From positions 23,893 to 87,892 of the IMG/VR virus record IMGVR_UViG_3300045303_000221: a stretch of 64,000 bases of DNA; one strand, written 5' to 3'. Made by a program: the position numbers and the translations under genes. Shown piece by piece: positions 31,301-61,122 of the stretch. Numbering within the stretch: the stretch's first letter is position 1; every line of letters begins with the position of its first letter. The notes beneath the pieces were generated by a model. The model saw nothing but the letters and a program-made list of their open reading frames with translations. It was not told the DNA's origin and did no database searches. This DNA comes from a virus.

Positions 31301-31451
31301 CTTCGACCACGTGCATCGGCCGGACGGGAAGATCAGGATCGTGAAGGCGCTGCGCGACGCGCGGGACGCGCCGATGTACCGCAGCGACCTGCTCTCGCAG
31401 GAGCATCGCGAGGCGGCGCTGAGGTCAATCGGCGCGTACGATCCGGACTAG
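28287..31451 (+). CDS. MuF-type minor head protein fused to zincin metallopeptidase, 1054 aa
   Basis: Residues 1-290 are the MuF part: a Pro/Ala N-terminus, long helices, then HTPDCIAMSGKVWPW and LHHGCPCILVG near 200-230, the conserved Cys/His end of MuF domains. Near 294 a tag-like FPKGTDRAGQFMPRRGG joins it to a large C-terminal extension. That part has a zincin motif HELLH at 576-580 with downstream acidic residues (EEALVEELSHVVAQEL near 600), so it is probably an active metallopeptidase. Two KOW/SH3-like segments follow (GALLRLKDGTITRVADV, AIGDVIDFGDGTHGRVEDV), then a helical C-terminus. MuF proteins carrying C-terminal effector domains are known to be packaged in the head and injected. 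Confidence 0.85.
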   Translation: MATDTDPLRARLRALTEQVVAAEPPPVEEPPARPDAVTAATGLAAALAAGGAVAPVVVGVQAYKQGADTVMAGTAMVLAALAHQAGQMDVAEIVAAAMDDPVFADDDIEQAIQAERAMQETFVRKQRARVKRDLPKALKLEDAAERRAAVQKLVEREKRYSQQRIEALRERLAGMAEMKRVEAQSPGGALWLLSDGVKVHTPDCIAMSGKVWPWPVLKLWHPPLHHGCPCILVGIPDALKQGLIKPGMIPTDHADAVKRARAIMRKAQRLEEVAAEGEVEAYLEAVEARWERRFPKGTDRAGQFMPRRGGSARALLRDLVPRQPRRRVTRIGGHRVVIPEERSFKRTIGDHTYTSPPGTTKVLRDGKPLGRDPGGEKHDLTLTRPTGDLRPSTPEREALAKVLNGAQADTLTGMRYAGVEEGLLAHGFIPVAVKGEDPLNRYFYRHPSGSTMTLNLVRWASGRMEVGVAYYSPAQVPVRADYPRASRPPETWDEFLKDATALAANIAERTNAHLGLGTIATSEHLTDHTGDHSWDGDIRLAPNVMADVQDALNKQARGETITLPSPVYRAYHTTAHELLHAINAGTAGDYHTQGGRTLEEALVEELSHVVAQELLSDHGLGEVAQWAANNPSKDAARGTYIGFRATLDGMLNDAGVPAADRPGLLWAMKTGMQTDDRLEFLAALMKTDVEAVRGRLTSNATGKDMAEYLPMVAASTRPVVTPGVFRMGGEQVGRGALLRLKDGTITRVADVGDQNGVVFAWTDDEEGHVHLVTEGDVDRVLTPPTSRGDQGRSLALRWEGAAEHEDVAIGDVIDFGDGTHGRVEDVFGRGSATAIRVATDQGSVWVTEKRRTVHPIKVTTGRGPEMEEPPEAKATGTQSIIDAGFGKAEQAGEELMLLQSVPHLLRMSLHRVLVRQRELQRIVGRDPMAANADVVEAEAELRRIERLIKAREAARDARAKAFKREHGYWAITQAEYDAAMDEPNVTTDDPHVALPGGVVAPKSVIFDHVHRPDGKIRIVKALRDARDAPMYRSDLLSQEHREAALRSIGAYDPD

Positions 31452-32445: not shown

Positions 32446-32521
32446 GCGCGGCTGGGCAAATGGTAAAGCCACCCGGTTCAACCCTCGGGAGACAGTCTGG
32501 GTTCGACTCCCAGGCCGCGCA
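32446..32521 (+). tRNA. tRNA with apparent 8-nt anticodon loop (anticodon region CAA)
   Basis: Acceptor GCGCGGC (32446-32452) pairs perfectly with GCCGCGC (32514-32520); discriminator A32521. D arm GGC/GCC. T arm CTGGG-TTCGACT-CCCAG (32497-32513). The best anticodon stem, CCCGG (32472-32476) with TCGGG (32485-32489), leaves an 8-base loop TTCAACCC and a 7-base variable region. A standard 7-base loop TTCAACC requires a C-C mismatch. The anticodon would be CAA (Leu) or an extended CAAC. CCA is not encoded (next bases CCT), so it needs a CCA-adding enzyme; the phage encodes a related domain in its giant protein. It lies between two minus-strand genes. Confidence 0.75.
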
Positions 32522-32522
32522 C

Positions 32523-32726
32523 CTACGGCAGAAGCGGCGGCGGCTGCTGCGTGATGGTGACCGGCGGCACGACGGTCACGGTGGTCACGACCGGGATGGT
32601 GAAGATGACCTGGCGCGGCTTCGGGGCGCTGATCGTGGTGGCGTAGATGAGGCCGACGCCGACGCCGAACACGAACAGCGCGAGGGCTGCGAACAACGGT
32701 GCTGCTATGCCGCGCGTCTCATCCAC
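32523..32726 (-). CDS. Membrane-anchored Val/Pro-rich protein, 67 aa
   Basis: GTG 32726 lies 6 bases after TACACT on the minus strand. One N-terminal membrane helix (APLFAALALFVFGVGVGLIY), then an external Val/Thr/Pro segment (VVTTVTVVPPVTITQQPPP) resembling that of the 31985 gene. The two may be related secreted proteins. Confidence 0.6.
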   Translation of the reverse strand: MDETRGIAAPLFAALALFVFGVGVGLIYATTISAPKPRQVIFTIPVVTTVTVVPPVTITQQPPPLLP

Positions 32727-34578: not shown

Positions 34579-36762
34579 ATGGACCTGACAGCGCAGATCG
34601 AGGCGGCTGCGCAGACCGCCGACCCCAACGAGCGCCGGGCGAAGCTCCGCATCCTGCGAGAGGAAGCGGAGGCGCAACTGGGGACGATCGACACCCACCT
34701 CGCCGACGTGGACTACGAGCGCGAGGCCGCCGTCCACGAGTTCACCGCCAAGGAAGCCGCCGCGCGCCACAACGCCACCCTGCGCGAGGAACTGATCCGA
34801 CGCGGCATCTCCGACGAAGCGAGCATGGACGACGCCGGACTGCTCTCCCACGCCGACCTCGACGCGCTCTCCGAGGAGGGCCTGCTGGAGCACGCACTGG
34901 ACGTGCTGTTCCCCGTCACCGAGGGGGCGGGCGGGAAGGTGTTCGGCACCATGATCCACTTCCAGGAGAAGCTGCACCCGCGCGGCCGAGGCGGCAAGTT
35001 CGCGAAGAAGCCCGGCGGTGGCGGCCCCGAGCCGAAGGCCGCGAAGCGCGCCCCGAACGTGCCCGGCAACGGCGGCGGCAAGACCAAGGCGCAGTCGCGC
35101 GCCACACCGGCACCGGCCGCCAGCGCATCACACGCACGACGCGAGGCGGAAGCCGCCCGCGCGAAAGAGTTCAAGCCGGTCGTGCCGGAGGACGTGCCGC
35201 AGCGCCCGAAGGGCCAGAGCGAGGAGAACAAGGCGAAGGTCGCGAACCTCGCAGCACGCATCGGCAAGCGCATCGCCGGAGCCGCCGCAGGCCGCCAGTC
35301 CTCACCGGAGAACACGATCTTCAACGCGAAGGGCAGCGTCTCACAGCACACGCTGCTCCAGTACGTCCGCGACGCCGCCAGCGAGCCGGACACGATGCAG
35401 CTTCACTCGCGCATGGGCCAAGACGGCCGACCCGTGTTCACCGCGGAACGCAAGGCCCTGCACGAGGCGATCATCGACATGGCGCTGCGCGCACCACGCT
35501 TCCGCCCAGACCCGCAGAAGCCCGACAAGAAGCTCCTGGAGTTCGACCCGAACGGCGCATTCCTGGAACCCGACCCCGACGGCCAGCCCAAGACGCTATT
35601 CAGCGGCGGCGGCTACGCAGCGGGCAAGGGCGCAAGCCTCGCCCGACTCGGAGACGACGAGAAGCCACGCAACGCGATCCTGCTCGACCCCGACCGGATC
35701 AAGGCGCTCCTCCCCGAGTTCCACGACGGCCTGGACAGCGACGACCCCGAAGCGAACCTGCACGTCTACCGCGAAGCGTGGGAGATCGCGCAGGAAGTGC
35801 AGCGCCGCGCCCAGGCGAAGAAGCTGAACATGGTCGTGGACGGCATCTCGGACACGACGGTGGAGGAAATCGACTCGCGCGTGCAGAGCTTCCTCGACCA
35901 CGGCTACAAGGTGCACATGGTCTACACCGACATCCCCACGGAGGAAGCGATCAGCCGCGCAGCGGGACGCGCAGCCGGGGCGAAGGCCGACAGCGACCGA
36001 CGCCACATCCCCGACACGATCATGCGCGCAGTGCACCGCGACGTGGCCGCGACGATCCCAGCCCTCATGGAGCACATGCAGTCGAAGCCGGAAGGCACCG
36101 CAAGGCCACGCATCGAGGTGTACGACAACCACCAGGGACAAGCCGACGACGGATCGTTCAACCCGCCGAAGCGAATGGCGCTATTCGACCCGGAGACGGG
36201 CCAGTTCAACGTGGAGGACGACGCGCTGTGGCAGCGCCTGCAAGCGAAGGGCGACGAGAAGATCCCCGGCCTCGACGCGCCGGAACGACCCGCGCAACCC
36301 GCGCCGGTCAGCGAAGCGGCGGAACCGCCGCAGGAAGGAGCGCCCGCCGTGCAGCCGGACGCACCCACACCGACACCCGCAGACGAGCCGCCCGCACCGA
36401 CGCCCGGCCCGAAGACGACGGACGAGATCGTGCAGGCCGGACTGCGCGTGGACGTGCCGTACGAACTGCCCGCCAGCCAGCCACTGAAGTACGAGGAAGG
36501 CGAACCGGCAGCGGAGACGCCGCCGGTGAACGCGAGCGAGATGGCCGACCGCGCGAGCGACGCGCTGGAGCGCAGCGGCATGACGAACGACCCGGACAGC
36601 AGCGCCGCGACCGGCCTGTTCCAGTACGACGCGCACGACGAGGCGGATGCCGTGAATCAAGCTCCGAAGGATGATTCACAGCCGGAAGCGAAAACGCCTG
36701 CAAATCCGGCACCGGTGAATACACCGAAGCCACCTTCGCCCACCGGCGGGACGCAGGGCTAG
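34579..36762 (+). CDS. Zeta-toxin-domain polyvalent protein with tag motif, 727 aa
   Basis: Residues 1-125 are helical. LHPRGRGGKFAKKPG near 132 is the recurring tag. A zeta-toxin kinase domain lies at about 335-520: P-loop SGGGYAAGKGAS near 342, LLDPDRIKALLPEF, VDGISDTT and AAGRAAGAKADSDRRHIP. Zeta toxins phosphorylate UDP-N-acetylglucosamine or similar substrates and block wall synthesis. The C-terminal 190 residues are Pro/Glu/Ala-rich and disordered. Codon choice (more NNA and CAC/GCA) differs from neighbours, and its last 110 bases are locally AT-richer. The gene has no epsilon antitoxin beside it. Probably a packaged effector. Confidence 0.8.
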   Translation: MDLTAQIEAAAQTADPNERRAKLRILREEAEAQLGTIDTHLADVDYEREAAVHEFTAKEAAARHNATLREELIRRGISDEASMDDAGLLSHADLDALSEEGLLEHALDVLFPVTEGAGGKVFGTMIHFQEKLHPRGRGGKFAKKPGGGGPEPKAAKRAPNVPGNGGGKTKAQSRATPAPAASASHARREAEAARAKEFKPVVPEDVPQRPKGQSEENKAKVANLAARIGKRIAGAAAGRQSSPENTIFNAKGSVSQHTLLQYVRDAASEPDTMQLHSRMGQDGRPVFTAERKALHEAIIDMALRAPRFRPDPQKPDKKLLEFDPNGAFLEPDPDGQPKTLFSGGGYAAGKGASLARLGDDEKPRNAILLDPDRIKALLPEFHDGLDSDDPEANLHVYREAWEIAQEVQRRAQAKKLNMVVDGISDTTVEEIDSRVQSFLDHGYKVHMVYTDIPTEEAISRAAGRAAGAKADSDRRHIPDTIMRAVHRDVAATIPALMEHMQSKPEGTARPRIEVYDNHQGQADDGSFNPPKRMALFDPETGQFNVEDDALWQRLQAKGDEKIPGLDAPERPAQPAPVSEAAEPPQEGAPAVQPDAPTPTPADEPPAPTPGPKTTDEIVQAGLRVDVPYELPASQPLKYEEGEPAAETPPVNASEMADRASDALERSGMTNDPDSSAATGLFQYDAHDEADAVNQAPKDDSQPEAKTPANPAPVNTPKPPSPTGGTQG
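36652..36679. repeat. Inverted repeat GTGAATCA/TGATTCAC, half-site repeated at 36769
   Basis: An 8-bp perfect inverted repeat with a 12-base spacer, inside the AT-richer 3' end of the zeta gene. TGATTCAC recurs at 36769-36776 just after the stop. It may mark a recombination junction. Confidence 0.5.
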
Positions 36763-37448: not shown

Positions 37449-37739
37449 GTGAGCACCCCTCTGCCACTGCTCGCGTTGGACAGCACCGTCAGCGTGGTCA
37501 CGACGATCGTGGCGGTCGTGTCGGCGCTGTCGGCGATCGTGCTGGGCTGGCTGAAGTGGGGCCGGGAGGACGCCGGGCAGACCGCTTCGACGGCGAAGAC
37601 GCTGGTCGAGACGATGCGCGATGTGAGCGCTGAGGTGAAGGCGCAGCGGGACGAGTGCATGGTGGATCGTGAAGCGCTGCGCGTAAAGGCGCAGAATCTG
37701 GAGGCCGAGCTTGACCGGCGGGAGGCCGAGCGTGGCTGA
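37449..37739 (+). CDS. Membrane-anchored coiled-coil protein, 96 aa
   Basis: N-terminal membrane helix ([20 protein letters not shown]) followed by a long charged coiled coil. Architecture is like phage accessory lysis or tail-associated membrane proteins. Start set by TAGAGT. Overlaps the next gene by 8 bases. Confidence 0.65.
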
Positions 37740-38406
37740 GCAGCCCGAGGTCACCGAGGTGATCGAGCGAGAGGACGACGACGAGTCTGCGCTGGTGGGA
37801 GCGCTGGACGGGATGGCGGCCGAGATCCGGACGCTGCACTGGCGCTCGCGGCTGTCGCTGATCGTGATGGGCGTGCTGACGCTGTTGACGATCCTGGCGT
37901 TCGGGACGGCGGCGCTGTCGCTGCGGCAGACGGCGAACGCGGCGAAGGACCGGGCGTCGCAGGCGAAGGTGGAGGCGCAGGCGGCGAACGCCTTGCTGGT
38001 GCAGTGCCTGACGAAGCAGACGCAGGCGGAGATTCAGGCGTGCCTCGGGGTGATGCCGGGTGCTCCGGGCGAGCCGGGCGTGGAGGGCGCGGCGGGCGTG
38101 CCGGGAGTGCCGGGGACGCCGGGCGAGCAGGGCCAGCCGGGCGCGATCGGGAAGCAGGGGCCGCCGGGCGCGACGGGGCCTGCGGGTCCGGCCGGGCCGA
38201 CGGGGAAGGGAGGGCCGCGAGGCGCTACGGGATCGCGAGGGGCGACGGGTCCGACGGGGCAGACCGGCCCGCAGGGGACGCCTGGGCCGCCGGGTCGGCG
38301 TGGGCCAGCGGGGCCGCAGGGACGGCCGGGCGCTCCGGCGCAGTTCCCGCTGACGATGACGTGCCGCTCGCCGGATGGCCGCACGTTCACGTGTAACCCC
38401 GCGTGA
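37732..38406 (+). CDS. Membrane-anchored collagen-like protein, 224 aa
   Basis: GTG 37732. An acidic N-terminus, a membrane helix near residues 42-65 ([20 protein letters not shown]) and a short coiled coil. Gly-X-Y repeats run from about 108 to 206, then a small C-terminal cap with a Cys pair ([16 protein letters not shown]). It should form a trimeric collagen-like stalk on the outside of the membrane. Distinct from the 12527 collagen protein, which has a different C-terminal cap. Confidence 0.8.
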
Positions 38407-38426: not shown

Positions 38427-41400
38427 GTGGAGCCGCACGACGATCTGTCTGAGGCCGCTGGCGGAACGCCGCCACCGAAGCGTCGCGGTGGGCAGGGCGC
38501 GAACCAGGAGTTTGAGGGCGCGCACCCGCGATCGGCGAAGGGCCGGGTGGGCGGCGGCGAGTTCGCGAAGAAGCCCGGGCAGGGCGGCGCGGCGAAGCCG
38601 AAGATGCAGGCGGTGTCGGTCGCGTCGGCGCTGAAGGCGGCCGGGGTGAAGTCGATCGCCGAGTTCCAGAAGACGCGCGGGCTGCCGGTGACGGGCAGGC
38701 TCGACTCGCGGACGATGGTGGCGCTGCGCAACGCCTACGTCGCGCACCTCGTGGACTTGCAGTCCGGCGGTGGGACGGCGGCCGGGACGAACGCGGCGGC
38801 GAAGGCCGGGGTGACGCTCGGGCTGCACGACTACGCGAAGCGCGGGATGGGCACGAAGGCAGACCCGGACTCGCGCGTGAGCCGGGTGCAGCAGACCCTG
38901 GAGCGGCTGGGCTACGACGTGCCGATCGACGGCGTGTATAGCTCCGAGCTTGAGACGGCCGTGAAGCAGTTCCAGGCCGACCACGGACTGCCCGCCACGG
39001 GCGTCGTGAGCGTGCAGACGCTGCGGCAGATGGACAAGCTCCACTCGCAGCGCGACGCCGGGAAGGAGCCGGGCGGCGGCCTGTCGGCGGACACGCCGGG
39101 CACGAAGCACCGGGTCGGCACGGACGAGGTGAAGTCGCTCGCGAACCGGGCACGCGCCGGGCGGATCGCGCGCACCGGCCGGGTGGCGGCGACGGTGAAG
39201 ACGACCACCCCGAAGGCGAAGGCGAAGCCGACCGGCACGAAGCCGCGCAAGCCGCCTGCGACGACGGCCGTGAAGATCACCCAGGCAGCGGTCGATGAGC
39301 CGGACGAGGCGCGCTTCGACGCGCTCGTGATCGACGGCGAGGAGGTCGAGCCGACGGACGTGACGACGCTCCCCTGGTGGGACGAGGACGAGACGTTCGC
39401 GCAGGAGGCGGCGATCGACTGGCGCGAGGTGCTGCACCCCCGGAACCGGCTCGGGAAGTTCCGGCGCGTGTTCGGCGACCCGCGCCCACAGACGCACACG
39501 CAGCGGCTGGTGGCGGAGCCGCCGGTGCAGACGCGGCGCACGGCCGGGAAGCTCGGGGCGCGTCGCACACGGCGCGAGACGCCGGTGCCGGACCAGTGGG
39601 GCCAGAAGCTGATCGAGCACGCCGAGTGGAGCGACAAGGACAACAAGTGGCTCCAGGAGGGCGGGGTGCTGGCGACGGTCACGCACCTGGCGACGGCGCA
39701 CCGCTGGCCGAGCATCGCGCCGTTCCAGGGGTTCGACGCGAAGTCGCTGCGCAACTCGGAGGGCGAGCTTCGGATCAGGCCGCCGCAGGAGGTGAACGGG
39801 CAGCGCATTTTCGAGCAGTGGTGGATCACGGCCGCGATCAGCGCGGCGAAGAAGGGCGTCACCGAGATGGTGATCGCGCACGAGGTGGGGCACATGCTGG
39901 ACGCATCGCTGATGCGCCCCGAGGACGGCCAGCCCGATCCGCGCAACAAGAGGATGGACTACCACTTCCACGGCAGCGAGGCAGCGGCGAACATGTCGAT
40001 CGAGACGATCGAGCGGCAGGGCTTCGCGATGTCGGCGGAGCAGCACGCGAGGTGGCGCGAGTTCCTGAAGATCGCCGTCACGCCGTCGGTGCTGGGGCAG
40101 ACGAAGTACGCGGCGAAGTACCACCGGTCGCCCGCCGAGTTGTGGGCGCGGGCGTATGCGCAGTGGGCGGCGTCCACGCAGGGGCCGCCGCTGGGGATCG
40201 AGCGGGCCGCGATTCCGGGCATGACGTGGCCTGCGGACGAGTGGGAGCCGGTCGGCCGGGCGGTGGAGTCGGTGCTTGGCAGCTACGGGCTGCTGCACAC
40301 GGACGGCGCGTTCAAGTGGGAGGTGCAGCCGGGCGGGATCGAGCCGCAGATCATGCCGGACGCGGCGCAGAAGACGATGAACGCTGTGCACAAGTTCATC
40401 GGCGACCAGCGGATGCACGGCGCGGCGCAGGCGCTGCAGGGCTTCGACTTCAAGTACGTCGATACGGTGGGCGGCGAGCACGAGTACGAGCGCGAGGTGG
40501 GTGGCGGTCTGCTCACCGGGTTCGTCAAGCCGAACGACCCGTCGATCCGGTGGGAGTTTGAGGCGGACGTGCAGGCGACGCCGCCGTATCAGCGGAGTCG
40601 GCGGGCACCGAAGCCGATGCCGGAGTACGTGCGGCAGGAGGGCCTGAACGCGGAGGCGGAGATGGAGTCGCGCGGGGTGCCGCCGATGGGCGTCCTGCTC
40701 GACCGCGGCTTCCGCTCCGAGGACTCGCCGTCGAAGGCGCACGCGGTGTACGCGAAGACGTTCCCCGAGGGGAAGCTGCGCGCCCGGTTCAAGCACGGCG
40801 AGCACAAGGTCGAGTGGAAGTGGGAGGGCGACCTGCCGGACATCACGTCGGAGGTGAGCGCGCCGCTGCCGGTGCCGCCGAAGCCGGAGTGGGTCCGACC
40901 GGATGATCCGGAGGGCGAGTCCTCGGACGAGTTCCTGGTGCGGATGGCCCGCGAGCGCGAGCGGACGATGACGTGGGAGCAGGAGGTGAAGCGGGGCCTC
41001 TCTGTTGGCCGGTGGACGGAGGCGGAGGCGAAGGAGGCTGGCTACCACACCCAGAGCCGCGGGGAGGGATGGGAGCCGCTGCCGGACGGGCCGCTGTTCC
41101 ACGTGACGACGGCCGCGAGCGCGGTGCGGGCTGGTGGGCTGAAGACACGGTACGAGCTTGCGCAGGGTTCGGGCGCAGGGCTGGGCGGCGGCGCGGAGGA
41201 CACGATCTCGTTCACCACGGACGAGACGATCGCGCGCGCCATCGCGCTGGGCCTGCGGGAGATGCGGATGGTCGCGCGCGGGGAGGTGTCGGCCGCCGAC
41301 CTGTTGCGGCACGCGGAGAACGGCACCGCGGCTGATAGGCCGTTCGCGACCGACCTGATCCGGTACTACGACTACGCGAACCGGGCGTGGTCGCCGGGAG

Positions 41401-44400
41401 ACGAGTTGCCGTCGGAGTTGCGGCTGTTGCTGGACGGCAAGCGACGGGTCGGTCACACGCACATGCCATCGACGCGAGAGGAGGCGGCGGCTGAGGCGGG
41501 GATCGCGCCGGAGCTTCTGACGCACTCAGATCAGTCGATGCCGTTCGGACGGGGGGCGCGGAACGACTGGGTGGGGCCGATGACGGACGCGCAGTTGCGC
41601 GAGAAGACGGTGGACTTTTACCGGGCGTTCCAGACGTTCCGCGAAGGCGCGGGCGGGCCGTTCAACCCGCTGTTCTTCTCGTCCGACACGGAGGCGCTGG
41701 CGAACGTGCATCCGTCGGAGATCCGCATCCTGCGGTTCCGGCGGAAGGCGAACGGGCACGGCTACCGGACGGCGGGGATGGAGGAGATCCGCACCGGCAG
41801 CGGCGAGGCGGTGCAGTTGGAGGACGTGCTGCGCGAGGACGCCTTCGACCTGTCGGAGGCGACGCACGAGTGGACGACGCTGCGGACGGACAAGGTGCGG
41901 GTCGGCGCTACCGAGGTGATCGGCCCGGACGTGACGACGCTCTCGTGGTGGCGCGAGGAAGCTGTGCAGGAGGCGTCCTGGCGCTCGGTGCTGCACCCTC
42001 GCGACCGGCGCGGCCGGTGGCGACACACGCTCGGGAAGCCGAAGGCGCGGAGCACGATCACGATCGACCCGGGCACGTTTATGCCGCCGTCGGGGCCGCT
42101 GGCGAATGGTCGGCCGCGCACGAGGGCGAAGACGCCGGTGCTGGACGAGACGCAGCGGATGATCCGCGACGCGCCGTTCCTCGATACCGACGTGGGCGAC
42201 GAGGTGCCGACGGAGTTCAACGTGGTGATGGCGCAGGCCGTCGTCGCGGAGGCACACCGGTGGCCGGAGTTGCCGCCGCTGACGTTCGTGCTGGGCGACC
42301 TGGAGCCGGGCGTGAAGGGAGAGTTGAGCATCACGCCGCCGGTGCCGCCGTTCCAGGAGGAAGCGTGGGAGTTGGCGCTGGACGAGAAGCTGATGGGCGT
42401 GGAGGGCGCGACGACGTTCGCGCACGAGATGGGCCACGCGGTGGACGCTGCGATGGCGCGCGACGTGGGGTATGTCGAGGGCAACAACGTGCGCGGCGCG
42501 GTCGGGAACTTCGGCTACTTCGCGTCGGGCATGGCGGCGGCCGACAACCCGTACGGCGAGGTGCTGCTCGGGCCGGAACGGTTCGCGGCGTGGCGGCACT
42601 TCCTGAAGATGGCCGTCACGCAGTCGATCGTGGACGAGATGTCGTCGCCGCCGGACTACTACCGCTCCCCGCACGAGTTGTGGGCGCGCGCCTACGCGCA
42701 GTGGGTGGCGACGCAGGACGAGGCGCTGATGGGCGAGATGCACGACGTGCACGAGCACGGCTGGCCGCAGGACGAGTGGGAACCGGTCGGACGGGCCGTG
42801 GAGCGGGTGCTGGGCGCGCACGGGCTGCTCTACGAGGGGGACGAGGCGTGGGTGGCGGAGGTCGGCCCGGAGCCTGAGAGGCGGCCTCTACGGCAGCCTC
42901 CGCGGTCGCAGATCGAGACGCCGCTCCCGCCCGTCATCCGCCAGAAGGCGGTCGCGGTGATGCACGACCTGACGCACATCGACCACAACCAGACGGGCGT
43001 GACGACGGACGACGTGATGCGGACGCACGGCTTCGCGGAGCCGGAGGGAGAGGCGCTGGCCGATGCGTTCCGGGAGGGCCTGGTCGGCGTCGGCTACAAG
43101 CTGTACGTGAGGGAGTTCCCGGTGGGCCGGGCGTGGTTCCGGGTGCGGACGGGCGAGCAGCCGCCGACGGAGCCGAACTTCTCGTGGATCGGCGAGGCGC
43201 TGCCCGACCCGCTGACGTTCGTGGTCGAGGCCCCGGATGACGAGGACGACCTGGAGTGGTTCCCGCTGGCGACGCCGGACGAGGTGATCGTGGACGGCGA
43301 GGTGATCGAGGGGCCGGACGTGACGACGTTGCCGTGGTGGGACGACGACGACGTGGTGGAAGCGGTGGACTGGCGGCCCGGCCAGCATCCTCGCGATCGG
43401 CGCGGTAGGTGGCGCGACGTGCTGGAAATGCCGAAGTCGAACGTGCTCGACAGGATCTCGGTGAAGTCAAGGGCGGAGCCGGACAAGCCGCTGACGACGA
43501 AGCTCGCGGGCCACGAGGTTCCGGTCGTGGTCGGCGAGATCGACATGTCGTACGCCACGACGACGCGCGTGGTTGCGGCGTTCGCGGCGGTCAAGGATCA
43601 TCGGTTCCCGGTGGGGTTCCTGACGATCGACCGGGACAAGCACCGGGTCGAGTTGATCTACGTGGAGACGGACAACCGGCGGCAGGGGATTGCGACGGCG
43701 CTGTACCGGGCGGGCCTGGCGCTGTACCCAGACCTGATCTTCGACGCCGACCGGACGGATGAGGGGGAGGCGTTCACGACGGCGACGGGCGGGAAGCGGG
43801 AGCGGCGCAGGAAGTTCGCGACGGCGGAGGCGCGGCGTATCGGTAGCCGGTTCCTGGGGGCGATGTACGGGGCGACGGCGGAGGACATCAAGCCGATCGA
43901 GCCGCCGCAGTCGGAGGGGCCGATCAGGGTCGCCTCGCGCTCGGGCTACCCGCCGGGCGGCGAGTGGCGGCGGGCGGTCGGCCTGGGGGAGGACGCCTAC
44001 CTGGTGGGTGGCGCTCCCCGGAACCGGATCTTCGGGGAGCCGGTGAAGGACGAGGACTTCATGGCCCTGCAGACGCCGGAGGCGATCAAGGCGGCGGCGC
44101 TGGCGGCTGGGCACACGGTGGAAGACCTGATGGTGCGCGACCGGCTGGTGGGCGTGCGCGTCACCGGGTCGAAGCTGCCGTCGGGCGGGATCGAGATTGC
44201 GCCGCCGAGGGTGGAGCGCTCGACCGGCGCGGGCCGCCACGACTTTGAGATCGTGCCGCACCCGGGGATCGGGTCGGAGACGCCGGAGGTGCTGCTCGCG
44301 GCGGACGCTGCGCGGCGCGACTTCACGTTCAACGCGCTGTACGAGGACGCGGCCGGGAACATCGTGGACCCGACCGGCACGGGCCTCGCGGATGCGCAGG

Positions 44401-47400
44401 CGAAGGCGCTGCGCACGGTGTCGCCGGACAGCTTCAAGGAAGACCCGCTGCGCATCCTGCGCGGCCTGCGGTTCATGTCGCAGTACGACGTGAAGCCGGT
44501 GCCGGACACGACCACGCAGATGCGGCTGCACGCATCGTCGGTGAACGCGCTGACGAAGAAGGGCGTGAGCGGCACGGCGCGCACCGAGTTGGACAAGATC
44601 CTGATGGGGCCGCACGTGGGCGCGGCGCTGCGGCAGATGCGCGACACGGGCGTGCTGGAGCACTTCCTGCCCGAGGTCGCTCCGGCGGTCGGCTTCAACC
44701 AGGAGTCGAAGTACCACGGCCTGACGCTGGACGAGCACATCATCTCGGCGGTCGAGGCGGCGGCTGCGCAGGGCGCGTCGCTGCGGGTGCGCCTCGCGCT
44801 CCTGTTCCACGACTCGGGGAAGCCGGAGTCGGCGTGGCGGGGCGAGGACGGCCACCTGCACTACTACGCGAACCCGAAGCTCGGGAAGGACGCGCACGAG
44901 GACGTGGGCGCGGCCATCGCGCGGCGGGCGCTGACCCGACTCGGCTACCCGGCGAAGGTGACGCAGGACGTGGAGCGGCTGGTGGCGGCGCACATGCTGA
45001 TGCCGACCGACCGGCTGTCGAAGATCAGGCGACTGCGGGCCGAGCACGGCGAGCTTCTGGACGACCTGTTCGCGCACCGCCGGGCGGACATGTCGGCGAA
45101 GGGCGAGGATCACGGCGCTGAGGGGCACGATGCGCTGGAGCGGATGCACGAGGAAGTGCGGCTGAGCCGGACGCGGGGCGAGGCGGTGCGGCGCGGCGAC
45201 CTGGCCGTGACGGGCGCGGACATCGTGGCGCTCGGGGTGAAGGGGCCTGCGGTCGGCGAGGTGCTGGCCGTGCTGCTCGACTTCGTGATCGGCGACCCGT
45301 CCCTGAACCGGCGCGACTGGCTGCTCGCACGGGCTGAGAAGCTGGCGCGGCGGCACCTGAGCGAGGCGGTGCGGGTGACGCCGGTGATGGAGGCGTGGTG
45401 GCGGTCGTTGCTGCATCCGCGGGATCGTCGGGGCCGGTTCATGGACAAGCTGGGACGCCCGACTCAAGCTGTGAGTCGCGAGCGGAACGAGTACCCGCCG
45501 TCGGTGGAGTATTTCGGGCCGTTCTACGACTCGCCGTACCCGATGCAGCGGACGCGCGACGAGGAGCCGGACCTGTCACCGCAGGCCACGAAGCTGATGG
45601 ACGACATCAGCGGCGCGCTGATCCGGCCGGGCAGCAGCGACCTGGAGCGGCAGACGGCGCGGCAGACGCGGGCGTCGGCGTACGCGGTGCTGACCGCGAA
45701 CCGGTGGCCGCGCATCCCGAAGACGAGCATCGCTGTGAAGCGCGACATGGCAGAGGGCACGCACGGGCACTTCGCGACGACCGGCTCAGGGACGGACGTT
45801 GAGCGGTGGGAGATCGCGATGAGCGAGGCGTCCGTGCTCACCGGGAAGTCCGTCACCACGATCGTGCACGAGATGGGGCACGCGCTGGACGCGGCGATGG
45901 CCTACCCGGTCGGCGACGACCGGCTGGCGCTGCGGGTCTACGGCGAGGTGAAAAAGAGCCACCTGGCGTCCGGGATCGCGGCCTCGGAAAACGAGGCGGG
46001 GCACGAGATGCTGGGCCTGGAGCGAGTGGCGGCGTGGCGGCGGTTCTTCAAGGCGTCGATCACGCAGTCGGTGCTGGACGCCGACGTGCGGCCGGGCTAT
46101 CACCGTGCGCCGCACGAGTTGTGGGCGAGGGCGTACACGCAGTGGGTGGCGAGCACCGATCCGTTGCTGGCGGAGCACTTGCGGCGGCTGAACTGGAATC
46201 AGGGCTGGCCGCCGCAGGAGTGGGAGCGCGTCGGGTTGGCGGTCGAGGACGTGCTGCGTGCGCACGGCCTGCTGTACGAGCACGACTCGCCGAACGCGCG
46301 GTATGCGTGGTCGGTGGTGGACCCGGAGACGGGCGAGCCGACGGAGCCGACGATCCCAGACCTGCCGCCGCTGATGCCGCCGCGCGGGATGGCGGAGCCG
46401 CTGAAGTACGCGCTCCCGAAGGAGGCGCTGGACGACGAGGTGCGCATCCGCGACGACCTGTCGAACGTCACGGAGGCGTCCGAGCACCCGATCGATGACG
46501 CGATGCGCAAGCAAGGGTTCTCGTACGCGGGCGACGACACGGAGTTCGTGACCTGGGCGAAGGAATACCCGGAGGGGCGGGCGCTGATCCGCTACCCGGT
46601 GGGCACGAAGCCGAAGACGTTCTGGGCGTTGGGGAAGTCTGCGTGGATCGGCAGCCCGAGGCCGGACCCGCTGACGCACGTCGTGGAGATGCGGGCGACG
46701 GAGCGGCTGTGGGGCGGTGTCGGTCGGCGGATGCGGCAGCACGGCGGCTACGCGGAGCGGCTGCACCCGAGGGATCGCCGCGGCCGGTGGCGGGACACGC
46801 CTGGGCAGATCACGGTGCGGTCGGAGGACTGGCGGGCGCAGCATCGGCCGCCGAGCAAGGACGACGACGTGGGCGGGCCGCTGCACGACCTGACGCAGGT
46901 GATGCCCGCCGACGTGTATACGCACCCGCACTACTACTTCACGACGGGAGGCGATCCGGACTCGGAAGCGGCGTACCGGGAGTCGTGGGCGGCGATCCAA
47001 CGGGTGCGCGGGAAGCCGGACGCGAAGGTGCGGATCTACCGGTCGCTCCCGGCCGAGCACGCGCACAACGGCTTCCACGAGGGCGACTGGGTGACGCTCT
47101 CCAAGACGTACGCGCGGCGGCACGGGATGGGGATGGGCGATCCGCACGCGGACGACTCCGAGAACGACTGGCCGGTGATCAGCACGACCGTGCTGGCGCG
47201 CGATCTTCTGACGCACGCGGACGACCTGAACGAGTGGGGCTACGTCGGGCCGGGCCGGAACACGGCGATGGTGGCGTTCAAGGGCGGCCGGAAGCAGGAG
47301 GTGCGCCAGCACGCGGATGGCGTCGTGCGTCCGGTGAAGCGGCGCGGCGAGGGGACGATCAAGGTGCAGTCGGCCGGGTCGATCGCGAAGTGGCGCGATG

Positions 47401-50174
47401 AGGGCGGCTGGGATGCGGGCGTGTTCTTCCACGTGACGCCGCGCGAGGATGCGATCGAGCGGCAGGGCGCGGTGCTGCCGCGCGGCCACCAGGAGGACGT
47501 GCAGGCGCAGCACGCCTTCCCGGTCGATCCGGACGTTGTGTACCTGTGGCCGTCGGCGGCGAAGGCCGAGAAGCACGTCGGGTACATGGAGCGGCGCGGG
47601 GTGACGGGGTTGACGGTGGTGCCGGTGCACGCGGACGTGTCGCAGCTTGAGCCGGACCCGGAGCCGTTCCTGAACCTGTGGCGGCAGGCGTCCAACTACG
47701 AGGCGGTGGCGGGTGTGCGGCAGCGCGAGAACCTGCGCGAGCACGGCTATGCGGCGCTGGACGAGGCGCGGCACTACCCGGACCCGGTGAACCATCCGGA
47801 GGGCGAGACGCTGCGCGAGTACCTGGCGACGGTGACGCCGCCGTACGTGGTGACCTCCCCGAGCGACGACTACCCGCCGGAGATCCTGGCCGATCCGTGG
47901 ATCGAGGCGCGGCGGGTGCTGGCCGACATGCCGGTGGCGCTGCGCAGGGACGTGGCAAGGGTGTTCTCGCAGCACGGCGTGGCGGTGCTGGCCCGGGGTC
48001 GCCGTCCGCTCGCGGAGGCGGCTGTGGCGGCTCCCGAGGGCGAGTGGGACGTGATCGTGGCGAATGGCGTCCGGCGCGAGCACTTCGACGTGACGCTGAT
48101 GCCGTGGTGGCACGACCTGGCCGAGGCGAGCTTCGCGGAGCGCCTGCACCCGCGGGACCGGCGTGGCCGGTGGCGACGCGGCGTCAGCCACCTGGCGACC
48201 AGCCCGGCGGCCACCGTCTCTCGTCACGGCATCGGGACGAAGCGGACTCGGCGCGAGGTTCCGGGCGAGGCGGACATGGACCGGTTCGTGCGGCTCCTGG
48301 ACGACCGGTTCCATCGCGACCCGGAAGACCCCTACCCGTACGACGTGCCGGAGTTCGTGGCGGAGCGGGCGGCGTCTGCGCACCGGTGGCCGGAGGCGGC
48401 GTCCGACATGCTCCAGGGGATCGACATGGACTGGCTGTCGCCGGGCGTGATGGGGCAGTTCGCCGTGGACCTGGGCGAAGGCGAGTGGGCGGACGACCCG
48501 ACCTCGCCGACCGGGGTGCGGCTTGTGAGCGGCCCTGAGACGCTTGCGTGGATCAGGATCGACCCGCGGTCGATGCCGGAGCGCGAGGGCGACCCTGCGT
48601 ACTTCGGGCCGGTGCTGGCGCACGAGTTGGGGCACCTGCTCGACACGTCGCTGGCGAAGCAGGCCGGTCAGAGCGCGTGGCGGTCGGACGAGGGGCACGA
48701 CGGCGAGTTGAACGGCGCGTCGATCATGGCGGCCCTCGACCCGCCCGACCGGCGGCTGACGGACGCGCAGGTGGCGGCGTGGCGCGGGTTCTTCAAGGCG
48801 GCCGTCACCCCGAGCGTGGAGGCGATGCCGAACCCGCGTTACAACCGGTCGCCGGACGAGTTGTTCGCGCGGGCGTACGCGCAGTGGATCGGGACGACCA
48901 TGCGCGATCAGATGGAGCGCGAGTTCCAGGATGCGCCGGAGGGGATGCACCGCTGGCCGCCGGACGAGTGGGAGCCGGTGGGCGCGGCGCTGGAGGCGGT
49001 GCTGGACGAGTTCGGGCTGCTGTACGACCACCCGGATCACCGGTGGCTGGCGGAGAGCTACGTCGCGCGGCAGCATCCGCGCGACCGGAAGGGCCGCTGG
49101 CGACTGGTCGCCCCACACGTGATCGCGAAGGCGATCGAGCTACGCAACGCGCCGGGCGAGGGTCGGCAGGGGACGCGCTACGCGAGGCCGACGGGCGACC
49201 CGGAGACGGGGAAGGTGCTGCACGGCGTCGGGACGCTGCTCGACCGGGCGGCCGAGAAGCAGGGCCGGACGCGGCGCGAGTTGGACGCGAAGCTCCAGTC
49301 GCAGGTGGAGCGCCTGGTCGGCCCGGAGTCGGGGACGGTGCCGATGATGCGGGTGCGGCCGGGGTCGCTGCGGTTCGCGTTCCGGACGTGGCACTTCCCG
49401 AACGCGCACGAGTCGCCGCCGGAGCCGAAGGAGACGTACCGGGGTGCGGACTACCGGAAGGCGCGGGCGCGGAGCGAGCGCGACTGGTTCGGGATCAGCC
49501 CGAGCGCGCCGCCGGAGCACTTCCCGCACTACGGCTACATGGCGCGGCCGGACGAGGAGGACTGGCTCAAGAACCTGGTCGGCGGGTTCGGGAAGATCAG
49601 GGTGCGCCTGAAGCCGCAGACGCGCGGCCGGACGACGTTCACGTACTCGGACTCGCTGTACGTCGGCAGCCACGACGACTCGATCGTGCCTTCTCCGGTC
49701 GATGAGCCGAAGGGCTACAGCGTGAGCGCCACGTCAGCGTTCTTCGTGCCGTGGCTGGAGCACGTCGCGCGCCCGCTGGTGAAGACGACGCGCGAGCAGC
49801 CGCCGCTGACGGCAGAGGAGGAACGGGACCTGGCCGACTGGAAGCGGTACGGGCGGCACGTGATGGACCGGCAGACGGGCGAGGAAGTGCGGCTGTACGG
49901 CGACGACCTGGTGCCGGAGTTCATGCGTCGCCGCGCGCAGCGGCTGGAGGACGAGGGCGTGTGGACGGACGCGACCTGGGACGATTTCTTTGAGGCGCAG
50001 ATCCACGGCGGGGTGGAGTGGGACGACGTGGACGGGATCGACTTCCCCGAAGACCCCGGCGAGGACGTGCTGCGCGAGTTGGCGCAGCGGAACATCTCGT
50101 TCACGATCGCGGCGGAAGCGGTAGAGTCTGCGTCAGATCGCGCCCGGCGAGTGATGGAGAGGCTGCAAACGTGA
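38427..50174 (+). CDS. Giant polyvalent protein, 3915 aa: 4 zincins, GNAT, CCA-adding-type NTase + HD, ART-like domains
   Basis: One uninterrupted 11.7-kb frame. Approximate order: tag [14 protein letters not shown] (35); two peptidoglycan-binding-like domains (63-105, 147-207); tag (335); zincin 1, HEVGH 485-489 with [15 protein letters not shown] downstream; ART-like [11 protein letters not shown] (890-950); tag (1190); zincin 2, HEMGH 1333-1337; tag (1655); GNAT with NRRQGIA near 1751; nucleotidyltransferase [10 protein letters not shown] (1860), [26 protein letters not shown] (2005) and HD domain LLFHDSGKP (2128); tag (2330); zincin 3, HEMGH 2481-2485; tag (2780); ART-like [11 protein letters not shown] and [11 protein letters not shown] (2867-2940) and [10 protein letters not shown] (3000); tag (3240); zincin 4, HELGH 3399-3403; tag (3550); C-terminal domain with [13 protein letters not shown], tentatively DUF3626-like. 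Each zincin has HExxH plus a conserved ELWARAY/ELFARAY helix. Fits the polyvalent-protein class of phage and conjugative-element proteins delivered into hosts. Processing at the tags is inferred. Confidence 0.88.
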
Positions 50175-51079
50175 CGGCGTTCCGCGCGGAGCTACACCCG
50201 AGGGACCGACGGGGCCGGTGGGAGTCGGTGCCGGGCGTGCGGCTGACGAAGGGCGGGAAGATTCGCCTGCGGCTCCAGATCGGGTCGGAGCAGCACAAGA
50301 AGCTGATCGCTCGCGGGCACACGATCGCGACGCCGACCTTGAAGCCGCCGCCGAAGCGGATGACGGTGAGCGGCGACGAGGCTCGCCAGCGGGCGCTGAC
50401 GCGGCGCGGCTACACGGCGCGCGTGGGCGCGTCGAAGCCTGCGCTCTCGGTGTACCCGTACACCGGCCCGGCGGGGACGCACACGGTGGACGGCGTGACG
50501 TACTGGGAGGACGAGGATCGGGCGCGCGACGTGGCGACGAGTATGCCGCGCTCCAGGGTGGAGAAGCGGCCGAGGGGCTGGGTGATCATCCTGGCGCACG
50601 GGAAGCCGCACAACGTGACGCGGCTGCGGCCGATGAAGGGCAACACGTGGGCCGACCCGTTCGGCGACATTGACGAGTTCGGCCGCACGCGACCACGGGT
50701 GCGCGAGGCGCGGCAGCGGCGGGTGGCGGCGAAGCTGGAGCGGATCGTGCTGGCCGACATCGAGGACGAGGCGGTCGCGATCCTGGCGGCGGAGCGGTTC
50801 CTGGTGGAGGCGGCGGACAAGACGCCGGAGCCGTTCTCCAAGAGCAAGACATCGAACTGGGTGGCGCGCGCCGGTGGGCTGCCGAACTACATCCAGCACA
50901 TCGCGCACGACCTCGTGGAAAAGCGCGGCAAGTCCGAGTCGCAGGCTATCCAGATGGCGATCGGCATCGTCAAGCGGTGGTGCCGGGGCGGCGGCGACGT
51001 GAAGCCGGACACACGCGCGGCGGCGTGCAAGGCCGTCGCGGAGTGGACGGCCCTGAAGGCGAAGGCCCATGCCTCGTAG
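50171..51079 (+). CDS. Tagged protein with C-terminal NWV-GGLP phage domain, 302 aa
   Basis: GTG 50171 overlaps the giant gene's stop. [15 protein letters not shown] starts at residue 8. The middle is a beta-rich region of unknown fold. Residues about 222-300 (NWVARAGGLPNYIQHIAHDL, SQAIQMAIGIVKRW, AACKAVAEWTALKAKA) match a helical domain I recall from other phage head-region proteins; its function is unknown. Co-translated with the giant protein. Confidence 0.75.
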   Translation: MTAFRAELHPRDRRGRWESVPGVRLTKGGKIRLRLQIGSEQHKKLIARGHTIATPTLKPPPKRMTVSGDEARQRALTRRGYTARVGASKPALSVYPYTGPAGTHTVDGVTYWEDEDRARDVATSMPRSRVEKRPRGWVIILAHGKPHNVTRLRPMKGNTWADPFGDIDEFGRTRPRVREARQRRVAAKLERIVLADIEDEAVAILAAERFLVEAADKTPEPFSKSKTSNWVARAGGLPNYIQHIAHDLVEKRGKSESQAIQMAIGIVKRWCRGGGDVKPDTRAAACKAVAEWTALKAKAHAS

Positions 51080-51758
51080 CCCTGCCTGGGACGCATCCGA
51101 GCAGCGCGTGCGGTCGGTGGCGCTGCATCACCACGTGGTCGTCAGCGAGGGGCTGCTGGGGCACTTCACGGAGCGGCTGCATCCCCGGTCGCACGGCAAG
51201 TTCGCGGCGAAGCCGGGCGCGTTGAAGGGTCGCGCCGGGAAGGCCGCCGCCAAGCGGGGGGCGGAGGCGCGGGCGTCGCATTACGAGCGGCTGAAGACGC
51301 CGGAGGGGCAGGAGCACCTGTCGAAGATCAGGGGCCGGATGTCGCACGGCGAGTGGCTGGAGCATCCGGGGTCGGCGGCCGAGCGGGCGATGTCGCACTA
51401 CGCCCCGCGGACGGCGCACGCCACGTCGCACGAGCAGCAGGTGTCCGACGCGAAGCACGCGGCGGCGAAGGCGGAGCGCGACCGGATCAAGGCGGAGGAC
51501 GAGGCGTACAAGCGGGGTGTGGCGCAGGCGCGGATGGACTGGCGCAAGTCGCTGACGCCGAAGGAGCGCCACCTGCACGATGCGTTCGATGCGGCACACA
51601 AGGCGTGGGCCGCGAAGATGACGTTCGACTACGACCCGCCGGAGGAGACGCGGGCGATGCGGAAGGCGCGGGCGGCGCTGGACGCGCACGAGGCGAAACA
51701 CGGCAAGAAGCGGCCGAAGTTCCCGGAGCAGCCGTACCGGCATGTGAGCGAGCCGTAG
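51069..51758 (+). CDS. Tagged basic helical protein, 229 aa
   Basis: ATG 51069 overlaps the previous gene by 11 bases. LHPRSHGKFAAKPG near residue 37, then Lys/Ala-rich helices with many His. Could be a DNA-associated internal head protein. No family recognised. Confidence 0.65.
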   Translation: MPRSPAWDASEQRVRSVALHHHVVVSEGLLGHFTERLHPRSHGKFAAKPGALKGRAGKAAAKRGAEARASHYERLKTPEGQEHLSKIRGRMSHGEWLEHPGSAAERAMSHYAPRTAHATSHEQQVSDAKHAAAKAERDRIKAEDEAYKRGVAQARMDWRKSLTPKERHLHDAFDAAHKAWAAKMTFDYDPPEETRAMRKARAALDAHEAKHGKKRPKFPEQPYRHVSEP

Positions 51759-54777: not shown

Positions 54778-56256
54778 ATGGAGACGCTGGTGGAGCGCGA
54801 CGTTTCGCAGGACGAGCGGGACAAGCTCGCGGACAAGGGCCACGCGATGGCCGACGGCTCGTTCCCGATCAAGCACACCGGCGACCTGAAGAACGCGGTC
54901 AAGGCGCACGGCCGGGCGAAGGACAAGGCGGCTGCGAAGGCGCATATCTGCAAGCGGGCGAAGGCATTGGGGGCTGAGCACATGCTGCCGGACGAGTGGA
55001 AGCTGTCGGAGGCGTGGGATGCGTCGGCGCAGCGGGCGCGCGCGGTCGAGGGGCACCTGGCGCACATGGCGACCGACCCGGGCTACGACCCGCTGCGAGA
55101 GGCCGCCGGGTACACGGCGACGCTGCATCCTCGGGACCGGCTCGGGCGGTGGCGAGAGGTTCCCGGGTCGGCGCTGGCGCACGTCGGAGCGCAGGCTGCT
55201 CGGGCGGACTTCAGCCGGTCGCGCTCGCGCGGCGCGGGCATCGTTCCCCCGGATGCGCGGCGCGAGGCGGCGATCCGGGCGACGGTGCTGCGGCGTGATG
55301 CTCAGAGTCCGGCTGAGAAGGTGCGGGTGAACCGCGGCAAGTCGTTCGGTCACGCTCGGCCTCGGCCGCCGGAGCCTGCTGCGAGTGCACCGGCGCACGC
55401 GCCGACGGCGATGATGCGGAACATGGACGCGCTGGCGCATGACCAGTTCGCGGCGCTGACGGTGGCGAGCAAGGCGCGTGCGCGCGGCGGGCCGCGGTGG
55501 CAGTTCACGGACAACCGCGGCGTGAAGAAGGAGGGGTACGTGGAGAAGGTGTCGGATCGTGGCGGCACCGACATCACGTACTTCTTCCGCGACGACGACG
55601 ACGTGCTGTCGGTCGTGAGCGGTCCGCACGTGGTGCGGACGAAGGCGGGGCCGCTGCGTGATCGGAAGCCGGACGTGTGGGGTGACATGCACGGGCGCGG
55701 CGTGTCGATCACGGTGCAGTCGCACGGGTCGAAGGGGCCGGAGCACTTCGCGGCGCAGGCGGCGAGGCACCGCGCGACGGAGAAGGCGCTGCGCGACCGC
55801 GGCGAGCACGCGGAGGCGAAGGGCTACGGCGAGATGGCGGCGAACTACGAGGCGCGCGCCGGTGGCATGTCCCTGGAAGACCTGACCCGCCAGCACGAGT
55901 CGATGCCGAAGATCAGCAAGCGCGAGGCGAACGCCGAGGTGCGCTCGATGGTCGCCGATCGGGCGGCCCGGCTCGCGGACGAGACGCTGCCGTCGTCGCA
56001 GTCGCCCGAGCACCTGAAGACGCTCTCGCTGTCGCAACTGGCGAGCGTGATCCGGCGCGACTGGGGCGGCAAGGTCAACTACGCGGCCAAGCCGTACCTC
56101 GATGCGCTCGGGTCGCTGGAGCAGATCGAGGACAACTACGGGGCCGATCCCGGCCGGATGATCGTGGCCTACTTCCTGTCGAACGCGACCTCGTGGCGGG
56201 GGCCGACGGCGAAGGCCGTGAAGGCCGAACTGAAGCGCCGGTCGGGCCGTCGGTGA
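54778..56256 (+). CDS. Tagged protein with DUF6582-like N-terminus, 492 aa
   Basis: Residues 8-75 (QDERDKLADKGHAMADGSFP, IKHTGDLKNAVKAHGRAKD, AHICKRAKALG, LPDEW) match a helical domain found in many phage head-region proteins (DUF6582-like, from memory). The tag LHPRDRLGRWREVPG is near 116. The middle has a beta-rich region (VKKEGYVEKVSDRGGTDITY) and the C-terminus is helical. Leaderless start. Probably an internal or injected virion protein. Confidence 0.75.
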   Translation: METLVERDVSQDERDKLADKGHAMADGSFPIKHTGDLKNAVKAHGRAKDKAAAKAHICKRAKALGAEHMLPDEWKLSEAWDASAQRARAVEGHLAHMATDPGYDPLREAAGYTATLHPRDRLGRWREVPGSALAHVGAQAARADFSRSRSRGAGIVPPDARREAAIRATVLRRDAQSPAEKVRVNRGKSFGHARPRPPEPAASAPAHAPTAMMRNMDALAHDQFAALTVASKARARGGPRWQFTDNRGVKKEGYVEKVSDRGGTDITYFFRDDDDVLSVVSGPHVVRTKAGPLRDRKPDVWGDMHGRGVSITVQSHGSKGPEHFAAQAARHRATEKALRDRGEHAEAKGYGEMAANYEARAGGMSLEDLTRQHESMPKISKREANAEVRSMVADRAARLADETLPSSQSPEHLKTLSLSQLASVIRRDWGGKVNYAAKPYLDALGSLEQIEDNYGADPGRMIVAYFLSNATSWRGPTAKAVKAELKRRSGRR

Positions 56257-56789
56257 CCTGGGTCGGCTCCGAGCAGCGGGAGCGCGCTGTCGGTCGTCAC
56301 CTGGCCGTGCTGCGAGAGGCGAGCTACGCGGAGCTTCTGCACCCGCGTGACCGGGTGGGGCGGTGGCGGATCAAGCTCGGGGTGGCCGGGAAGAAGATGG
56401 GTCACGCGCTGGACAAGGCGCTGGGCGAGCCGACGCAGATGCAGCGCGGGCCGGTGACGCTGCACGACCTCGGGATCCCGGTGACGAATCTGGCGCAGCG
56501 GCCGGGGAAGATCAAGGCGTCGCTGCGGCGTGACCAGCGGTTCTTCGCGCCGCACTTCCGGATCGAGACGACGGGGGTGGACGAGCAGGGCCTGGCGACG
56601 CACTTCCCGGAGCCGATGCACGTGACGCCGGATGCGGACGTGGAGTCGTTCGCTCGCGAGGAGCGCGACAAGGTGAAGGCGAAGGGCATGGCGGTGTACC
56701 AGCGGATCCATCACATTCGCGGGAAGGGGCCGGGCGAGCAGTCGGTCGTGCATGAGCAGGGGGCGCGGCCCCGCGCGTACCGAGGCTGA
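56253..56789 (+). CDS. Tagged protein, 178 aa
   Basis: GTG 56253 overlaps the previous stop. The tag LHPRDRVGRWRIKLG is near residue 29. The rest is alpha/beta, with HFPEPMHVTPDADVESFARE. Domain unknown. Confidence 0.65.
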   Translation: MTWVGSEQRERAVGRHLAVLREASYAELLHPRDRVGRWRIKLGVAGKKMGHALDKALGEPTQMQRGPVTLHDLGIPVTNLAQRPGKIKASLRRDQRFFAPHFRIETTGVDEQGLATHFPEPMHVTPDADVESFAREERDKVKAKGMAVYQRIHHIRGKGPGEQSVVHEQGARPRAYRG

Positions 56790-61025: not shown

Positions 61026-61045
61026 TCTGACAGTCGCGGTTGCGG

Positions 61046-61066
61046 GAGCACGCCGTGTGCGACACT
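61046..61066 (+). promoter_or_regulatory. Regulon operator-promoter (site 18) before capsid genes
   Basis: CACGCCGTG (9/9, centre 61053). At spacing 8 lies GACACT, overlapped by TATGCG. The leader runs to ATG 61123, with CGAGGGAG as RBS. Confidence 0.65.
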
Positions 61067-61122
61067 ATGCGCTGTGTGGAAGCGCGCAGTGCGTTCGGCA
61101 GAGTCCGTGCAACGAGGGAGCT

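Follow-up and report, generated by a model that had tools for sequence, protein, structure and literature searches.

What is a protein of 3915 residues, in which enzyme-like domains of unrelated kinds alternate with a recurring short peptide, doing among the head genes of a phage? The protein, here called the giant protein, is encoded in a stretch of 64,000 nucleotides (the window; positions 23893 to 87892 of IMG/VR virus record IMGVR_UViG_3300045303_000221, a metagenomic contig of 87,892 bp). The initial annotation had called it a polyvalent protein, and so it is as Iyer et al. 2017 (PMC5512222) use the term, with unrelated activities on one chain, four related zincin-type domains and a place in a head-gene cassette. 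It is a new variant of the known polyvalent proteins, divided by a conserved peptide (the tag) that recurs in other genes. A role as head cargo is highly probable; that the giant protein is, more precisely, a cargo polyprotein targeted to the head, which the prohead protease cleaves at its tags before injection, is given a probability of roughly 0.55, and cleavage at the tags, taken by itself, is an even bet.

The gene is a single open frame, as first annotated, uninterrupted through all 3915 codons. Third-position guanine-plus-cytosine content is 0.93 to 0.95 in each 500-codon block and composition is constant by codon position, so one coding frame runs throughout, without sign of a chimera or frameshift. 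An assembly chimera, in line with the reservation attached to the initial annotation, is rejected by this constant codon bias and by the conservation of the modules in five IMG/VR records with related portal proteins (about 47-63% identical; G001, G003, G005, G006 and G007), hereafter the sister phages. No DNA-level relatives were found in phage records.

The stretches between modules had been described as repeated linkers; the repetition is real, and they are a specific peptide common to other genes and other phages. The tag consensus, [LVM]xE[AGS]-x(1-3)-[YWF]xExL-HPR[DG]RxG[RK][WF], was drawn from 35 tags in six sister records, with an aromatic residue at position -5 in 33, glutamate at -3 in 22, leucine at -1 in 30, and LxE[AGS] 9-13 residues ahead in 23. 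This phage has 14 copies in seven genes (Table 1), against a mean of 0.007 in shuffled proteomes. Codon pairs compared among ten tag copies give 188 synonymous and 79 non-synonymous differences, against 50 and 356 in the next ten codons; because the tag codons change mostly synonymously and the flanks the reverse, the peptide is maintained by amino-acid selection and does not stem from a recent DNA duplication.

The same peptide was found in unrelated phages. A DNA-pattern scan of IMG/VR for HPRD..GRW yielded 75 distinct contexts, 35 of them with [FYW]xE at -5 to -3 (background, 0.6% per position). When ten longer tag-bearing proteins from unrelated phages were compared with PHROGs, a portal domain ended at or before the tag in five, a head-morphogenesis domain was present in one, and protease and capsid-type domains in one. 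In one portal fusion the tag is followed by the zeta-toxin/minor-head family to which the window gene at 34579 belongs. A zincin of the giant-protein family lies at the C-terminus of the portal protein of locus L006 (7760-10228), joined through AGQHDQKTHGHGG, with an HDQKTHG junction that in other phages may take the place of the HPRD tag; another is fused to a MuF-like protein in L115 (Haloferula). The cultured Gordonia phage GodonK (NC_048176; host Gordonia terrae 3612) encodes, directly past its portal gene, a 1479-residue protein (gp67) with WNEALHPRGADGRW at residues 23-36. GodonK has a different head-protein motif, [LF][TV]A[SA], both in its head genes and immediately ahead of the tag; it was picked after looking and is suggestive only. 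A search of cultured phages for the short tag in the form FDESEHPRD gave no match, and no earlier report of the tag was found in the open-access literature of PubMed Central (PMC), a scope outside which subscription papers fall. We tentatively propose, at a little under even odds, that HPRDxxGRW is a portable head-cargo tag across unrelated phages, tying enzymes to the portal or inner head, and that in this lineage a prohead-protease site accompanies it, the polyprotein being cut in the capsid and cargo swapped from tag to tag like cassettes.

Table 1. Features of the giant gene and of related or neighbouring genes (window coordinates; residues of the encoded protein)
Feature	Coordinates	Strand	Remarks
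Giant polyvalent protein gene	38427-50174	+	GTG start, 3915 residues, no internal stop
Degenerate N-terminal tag	38523-38564	+	residues 33-46, kept in sister proteins
Two PG_binding_1 domains	38598-39044	+	residues ~58-206, PF01471
Tag 1	39435-39461	+	HPRNRLGKF, residue 337
Zincin-type domain 1	39549-40376	+	HEVGH 485, ELWARAY 571
LFHVTT domain	41124-41921	+	residues ~900-1165; ART-like by inspection alone, no Pfam family match
Tag 2	41994-42020	+	HPRDRRGRW, residue 1190; putative cleavage VQE1182/A1183
Zincin-type domain 2	42099-42911	+	HEMGH 1333, EL[WF]ARAY 1417
Tag 3	43386-43412	+	residue 1654; putative cleavage VVE1645/A1646
GNAT-like domain	43434-43916	+	residues ~1670-1830, PF13673 E 0.0016; sister L005 0.0004
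CCA-type nucleotidyltransferase and HD module	43959-45386	+	residues 1845-2320; 50-52% identical in G005-G007
Tag 4	45414-45440	+	HPRDRRGRF, residue 2330; putative cleavage VME2322/A2323
Zincin-type domain 3	45534-46346	+	HEMGH 2481, EL[WF]ARAY 2564
Tag 5	46764-46790	+	residue 2780; no upstream LxE[AS]
Module 5N, ART-like	46809-47342	+	74 viral homologues; PHROG 2579 'ParB C-terminal'
Tag 6	48147-48173	+	residue 3241; putative cleavage LAE3233/A3234
Zincin-type domain 4	48264-49061	+	HELGH 3399, EL[WF]ARAY 3478
Tag 7	49074-49100	+	HPRDRKGRW, residue 3550; putative cleavage LAE3543/S3544
C-terminal module, DUF3626-like	49224-50126	+	DUF3626 0.00055, under cut-off; homologous to N-terminus of G001 giant MuF-like protein
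Tagged gene	18249-19844	+	two tags (residues 27 and 371)
Portal protein	26411-28303	+	phrog_10963 3e-27
MuF-like minor head protein fused to zincin-type domain	28287-31451	+	HELLH 576; called MuF-like on signature and synteny
Minor head-type protein with zeta-toxin domain, tagged	34579-36762	+	tag 34975-35001
Next gene, start overlapping giant gene stop	50171-51079	+	tag near N-terminus, 50195-50221
Tagged gene	51069-51758	+	HPRSHGKF at residue 38
Tagged gene	54778-56256	+	tag 55126-55152; C-terminal domain fused to carrier in G003
Tagged gene	56193-56789	+	tag 56340-56366
Putative protease/scaffold	60994-62466	+	15 LxE[AS], 2.1 expected; label from place upstream of cement protein and capsid
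Cement protein	62523-62918	+	PF09956
Major capsid protein	62961-63998	+	PF25209 3e-35

Cleavage sites of the hydrophobic-x-E kind are known from phage heads: gp21 of T4 cuts after L/I-x-E, and the T4 capsid targeting sequences join an address to a cleavage site (PMC9026906), while the protease of the giant phage SPN3US cuts after A-x-E (PMC10052503). Among genes of at least 200 residues, the putative protease/scaffold ranks first in enrichment of [LIVM]xE[AS], with 15 observed and 2.1 expected in this phage, 15 and 2.0 in G001, and 11 and 1.8 in G003. LxE[AS] is enriched also in the portal protein and in the capsid protein (of this phage and of G003), and not in the helicase; the capsid protein here has LQE27/A28 about where similarity to other capsids starts (residues 24-47). 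From these observations LxE/[AS], which stands before most tags, is likely the prohead protease site. Judged by sequence only, the tag is a peptide common to putative head-internal proteins and placed beside a hydrophobic-x-E site.

Several points weigh against a cargo polyprotein cut at its tags. An [LIVM]xE[AGS] site is missing at tags 1 and 5, at the N-terminal tag and at a few more; LxE[AS] is not enriched across the giant protein as a whole (15 against 9.7, p 0.08); and in G003 the VTEAGAGG conserved in the protease gene reads VTQAGAGG. The protease/scaffold label is without a family match in Pfam and the other family searches of the window. The sister tags are kin, so that binomial p-values overstate the evidence, and the record is a metagenomic contig without a host. 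Finally, a role purely inside the capsid does not explain the peptidoglycan-binding domains.

It is also possible, if rather unlikely, that the tag serves solely for anchoring or targeting and that the polyprotein is packed and injected whole, uncut at the tags, in the manner of the phage N4 virion RNA polymerase. That polymerase, which has a zincin domain, is packed unprocessed (PMC5512222), and it is the core [FYW]xE..HPRD..GRW that unrelated phages have in common, the LxE[AS] part being lineage-specific. Such a reading leaves aside, however, the LxE[AGS] placed 9-13 residues before 23 of the 35 tags, and the standing of LxE[AS] as the most enriched motif in the putative protease/scaffold.

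A second rival concerns the zincin-type domains. Four HExxH copies with an ELWARAY-type helix had been recognized at the outset, and they stand; many invariant columns are common to the four, whose pairwise identity is 33-45%. The suggestion of internal duplication holds insofar as the copies are related, but not as a recent or simple event, since the sister protein L005 has one zincin, which at 31-40% identity is about as close to them as they are to each other. The copies therefore appear to be diverged cassettes, and any duplication seems old or not simple; recent tandem duplication is unsupported. The two histidines and the glutamate of HExxH, and the glutamate of E[LVI][WF]ARAY, are invariant in eight zincin homologues, the last residue being presumably the third metal-site ligand. 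Pfam places LPD1 (1e-10) at the ELWARAY helix. LPD1 matches every one of the eight homologues, which no other Pfam family does, and may therefore correspond to the C-terminal half of a subfamily of zincins. A structural model of zincin 2 is partly confident (core predicted local distance difference test, pLDDT, 70-92), with PDB matches that include collagenase and leishmanolysin, none significant; an alignment profile against PDB sequences gave no meaningful match, and a genome scan gave just two distant zincins. The zincin assignment is based on motifs and homologues and not on fold searches.

The zincins themselves, and not the prohead protease, might cut the linkers by autoprocessing, either within the head or once in the host. 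This is an unlikely but live rival. Zincin autoprocessing has been proposed for polyvalent proteins, in which one to five peptidase domains per protein are reported, and for DdrB of phage P1 (PMC5512222); moreover, all four copies here keep HExxH and the conserved glutamate, each 143-158 residues after a tag. Against it, many tagged proteins have no HExxH, GodonK gp67 among them, and the site by the tags matches a motif enriched in other head proteins.

The head-cargo reading draws on the gene neighbourhood as well. The giant gene lies inside a head cassette, with terminase (4876) and portal genes upstream and cement protein and capsid genes downstream. Signature and synteny are the sole basis of the MuF label upstream, family searches in the window having given no match, and Pfam and PHROG searches found no MuF family in the giant protein itself. 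That the giant protein is instead a tail or cell-wall entry protein, its peptidoglycan-binding domains acting at the envelope during DNA entry, is improbable. PG_binding_1 occurs twice here (PF01471, 4e-23 in Pfam), twice in L005 and three times in G003, and a collagen-like repeat protein of tail-fibre type is encoded directly upstream of the giant gene (37711-38406), within the head cassette. Yet the giant gene stands between the portal/MuF-like genes and the protease/cement/capsid genes, no cell-wall hydrolase domain was found, and the same modules occur on portal and MuF-like proteins elsewhere. Very improbable, finally, is the view that the tags are functionless linkers spread by recombination between similar DNA, for although they lie at module joints and are 71-89% similar at the DNA level, their codons diverge synonymously with the peptide kept, unlike the flanks, and single tags stand near protein N-termini and beside portal domains in unrelated phages.

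The modules of the giant protein may be compared with those of the sister phages. The carrier, defined by an N-terminal AHPR..GR.GGG.FA.K peptide and peptidoglycan-binding domains, has 3915 residues here, ~950 in G001 and 916 in G003, for portals 51-63% identical; that of G001 has a GNAT domain and one zincin, and that of G003 has no zincin. G001 has instead a MuF-like giant of 4149 residues with two HExxH domains, the N-terminus of which is homologous to the C-terminal module here in two stretches (35% and 49%). The size and combination first called unusual are thus to be qualified, a sister having an even longer protein with one module in common and several peptidase domains per protein being on record; CCA/HD does look new relative to the 2017 survey, but three sisters also carry it. 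The MuF-like protein of G003 carries a tag, a zincin, an FHATRRED domain and a second zincin, and the carrier of G003 is fused to the C-terminal domain of what is here the separate tagged gene 54778-56256 (65% over 79 residues). In G005-G007 the CCA module belongs to a tagged gene 4-5 kb past the end of the portal gene; residues 1845-2343 here (tag at 2330) match residues 127-622 in G005, which run from just past a tag at 121 through another at 611. Modules thus move between carrier genes, and the CCA module, at least, is bounded by tags. The last 92 residues of gene 50171-51079 are 90% identical to a G001 gene (121183-121668), a level that the cassette otherwise does not approach, and probably represent a recent exchange of a tag-linked segment with G001. 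The zeta-toxin head protein of G003 (L113, 2080-5010) has a C-terminal extension that is RelA/SpoT-like by eye, without a family match.

The CCA-adding-type enzyme of the initial annotation is confirmed by PolyA_pol (3e-12) and PolyA_pol_RNAbd in Pfam and by the PHROG tRNA nucleotidyltransferase (2e-48). The module comprises a nucleotidyltransferase head, an RNA-binding domain and an HD domain (Pfam, PHROG, NCBIfam and PDB sequence searches), and on alignment to 1miv it keeps GGxxR, DxD, RRDFTxNA and EDxLRxLR, the usual D after GGxxR being N. Its score against NCBIfam tRNA_CCA_actino (TIGR02692; 3e-39, 134.9 bits) is below the equivalog cut-off of 438.8, and the module is therefore named CCA-type only. 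The GNAT domain first annotated is a tentative call, sub-threshold in the giant protein (PF13673, 18.8 bits, gathering score 23.6); a tagged GNAT in G007 is above the Pfam gathering score (24.6 against 20.7 bits).

The ART-like domain likewise remains tentative. An AlphaFold model of module 5N with 38 viral homologues (pLDDT 88.5) has as its best PDB matches the ARTs (ADP-ribosyltransferases) Vis and ExoS, none significant (E 0.12 or worse; template modelling score 0.26), and the alignment profile of 5N had no meaningful match among PDB sequences; motifs and homologues, not fold searches, make an ART plausible. PHROG places a 'ParB C-terminal' family domain at residues 2784-2945. Single-sequence scans of IMG/VR with the whole giant protein or with module 5N gave no matches, and the homologues were recovered by alignment queries: the 74 found for 5N (loci L131-L204) stand alone (~140 residues) or lie within open reading frames of 1000 to >2100 residues, and the tag is absent in all 39 examined. 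In Nodularia phages (L120, 4759-6636) a DUF3626 relative of the C-terminal module is encoded a few genes past the portal gene, in a head-gene context.

Other features were noted in passing. ARAGORN called one tRNA-like gene in the window (32446-32523, four-base anticodon caac), possibly spurious. Locus L003 (2693-7891, record coordinates) encodes a 1732-residue protein rich in GT(I/V)TP(A/T)G repeats, for which Pfam and PHROG gave no match.

The gene and its modules, the conserved tag, the exchange of modules, the setting among head genes and the tags beside portal domains in other phages are observed. Packaging, cleavage, injection and all enzymatic roles, as we infer them, would proceed as follows. 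The giant protein would be synthesised late, together with the proteins of the head, and incorporated in the prohead, where the tag, which opens nearly all modules and also occurs in six further genes, would serve as an address, a junction holding cargo to the portal or inner head, or both. During head maturation the prohead protease would cut LxE/[AS] ~10 residues ahead of tags (predicted cuts in Table 1), giving about five to seven module-sized fragments to be ejected with the DNA. In the first minutes the CCA/HD enzyme might restore or shield the 3' ends of host tRNAs, or mend cleaved tRNA, in opposition to tRNA-attacking defences. The ART-like and GNAT domains might modify host proteins, and the zincins might trim cargo or cut host proteins, as a second possible processor or as effectors.

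Like the polyvalent proteins surveyed previously (PMC5512222), the giant protein is a very large phage protein of unrelated enzymatic domains (2-15 in that class) with a zincin-like hub and putative GNAT-like and ART-like domains, in a late, portal-terminase context with portal, terminase, cement and capsid genes nearby. Unlike them, its modules are divided by a conserved peptide that other genes also carry. The CCA/HD module of a phage polyvalent protein looks new relative to the survey, in which pol-beta nucleotidyltransferases are found only in conjugative-element proteins and 'CCA' does not occur. T4 internal proteins (PMC9026906) are similar in that a short address peptide beside an L/I-x-E site is common to several head-internal proteins; the tag, unlike the T4 capsid targeting sequence, is internal and repeated in one chain, is unrelated in sequence, and has a cleavage that is predicted. 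The antirestriction Dar proteins of P1 (PMC9024508) are also large, and are packaged in the head with an N-terminal localisation signal, some being proteolytically processed, but their N-termini have no common signal by BLAST, whereas here one tag is recognisable. In MuF polymorphic toxins (PMC5576092) cargo or toxin is borne on a head protein, as in the MuF-like genes of this phage and its sisters; the giant protein, in contrast, has no MuF domain, the MuF-like gene being separate.

Because four sister phages have CCA/HD as cargo, repair of tRNA ends may be needed at entry, pointing to host defences that attack tRNA. The selection and arrangement of co-injected proteins are known for few phages, and the T4 signal is confined to its relatives. 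The surprising part is the tag, with its ties to portal fusions and to a T4-like cleavage motif, and because GodonK is cultured, the model can be tested there. Such a tag would reveal the points of division in polyvalent proteins and offer a simple means of capsid loading, and, being recognisable, would allow head cargo to be predicted from sequence in many uncultured phages.
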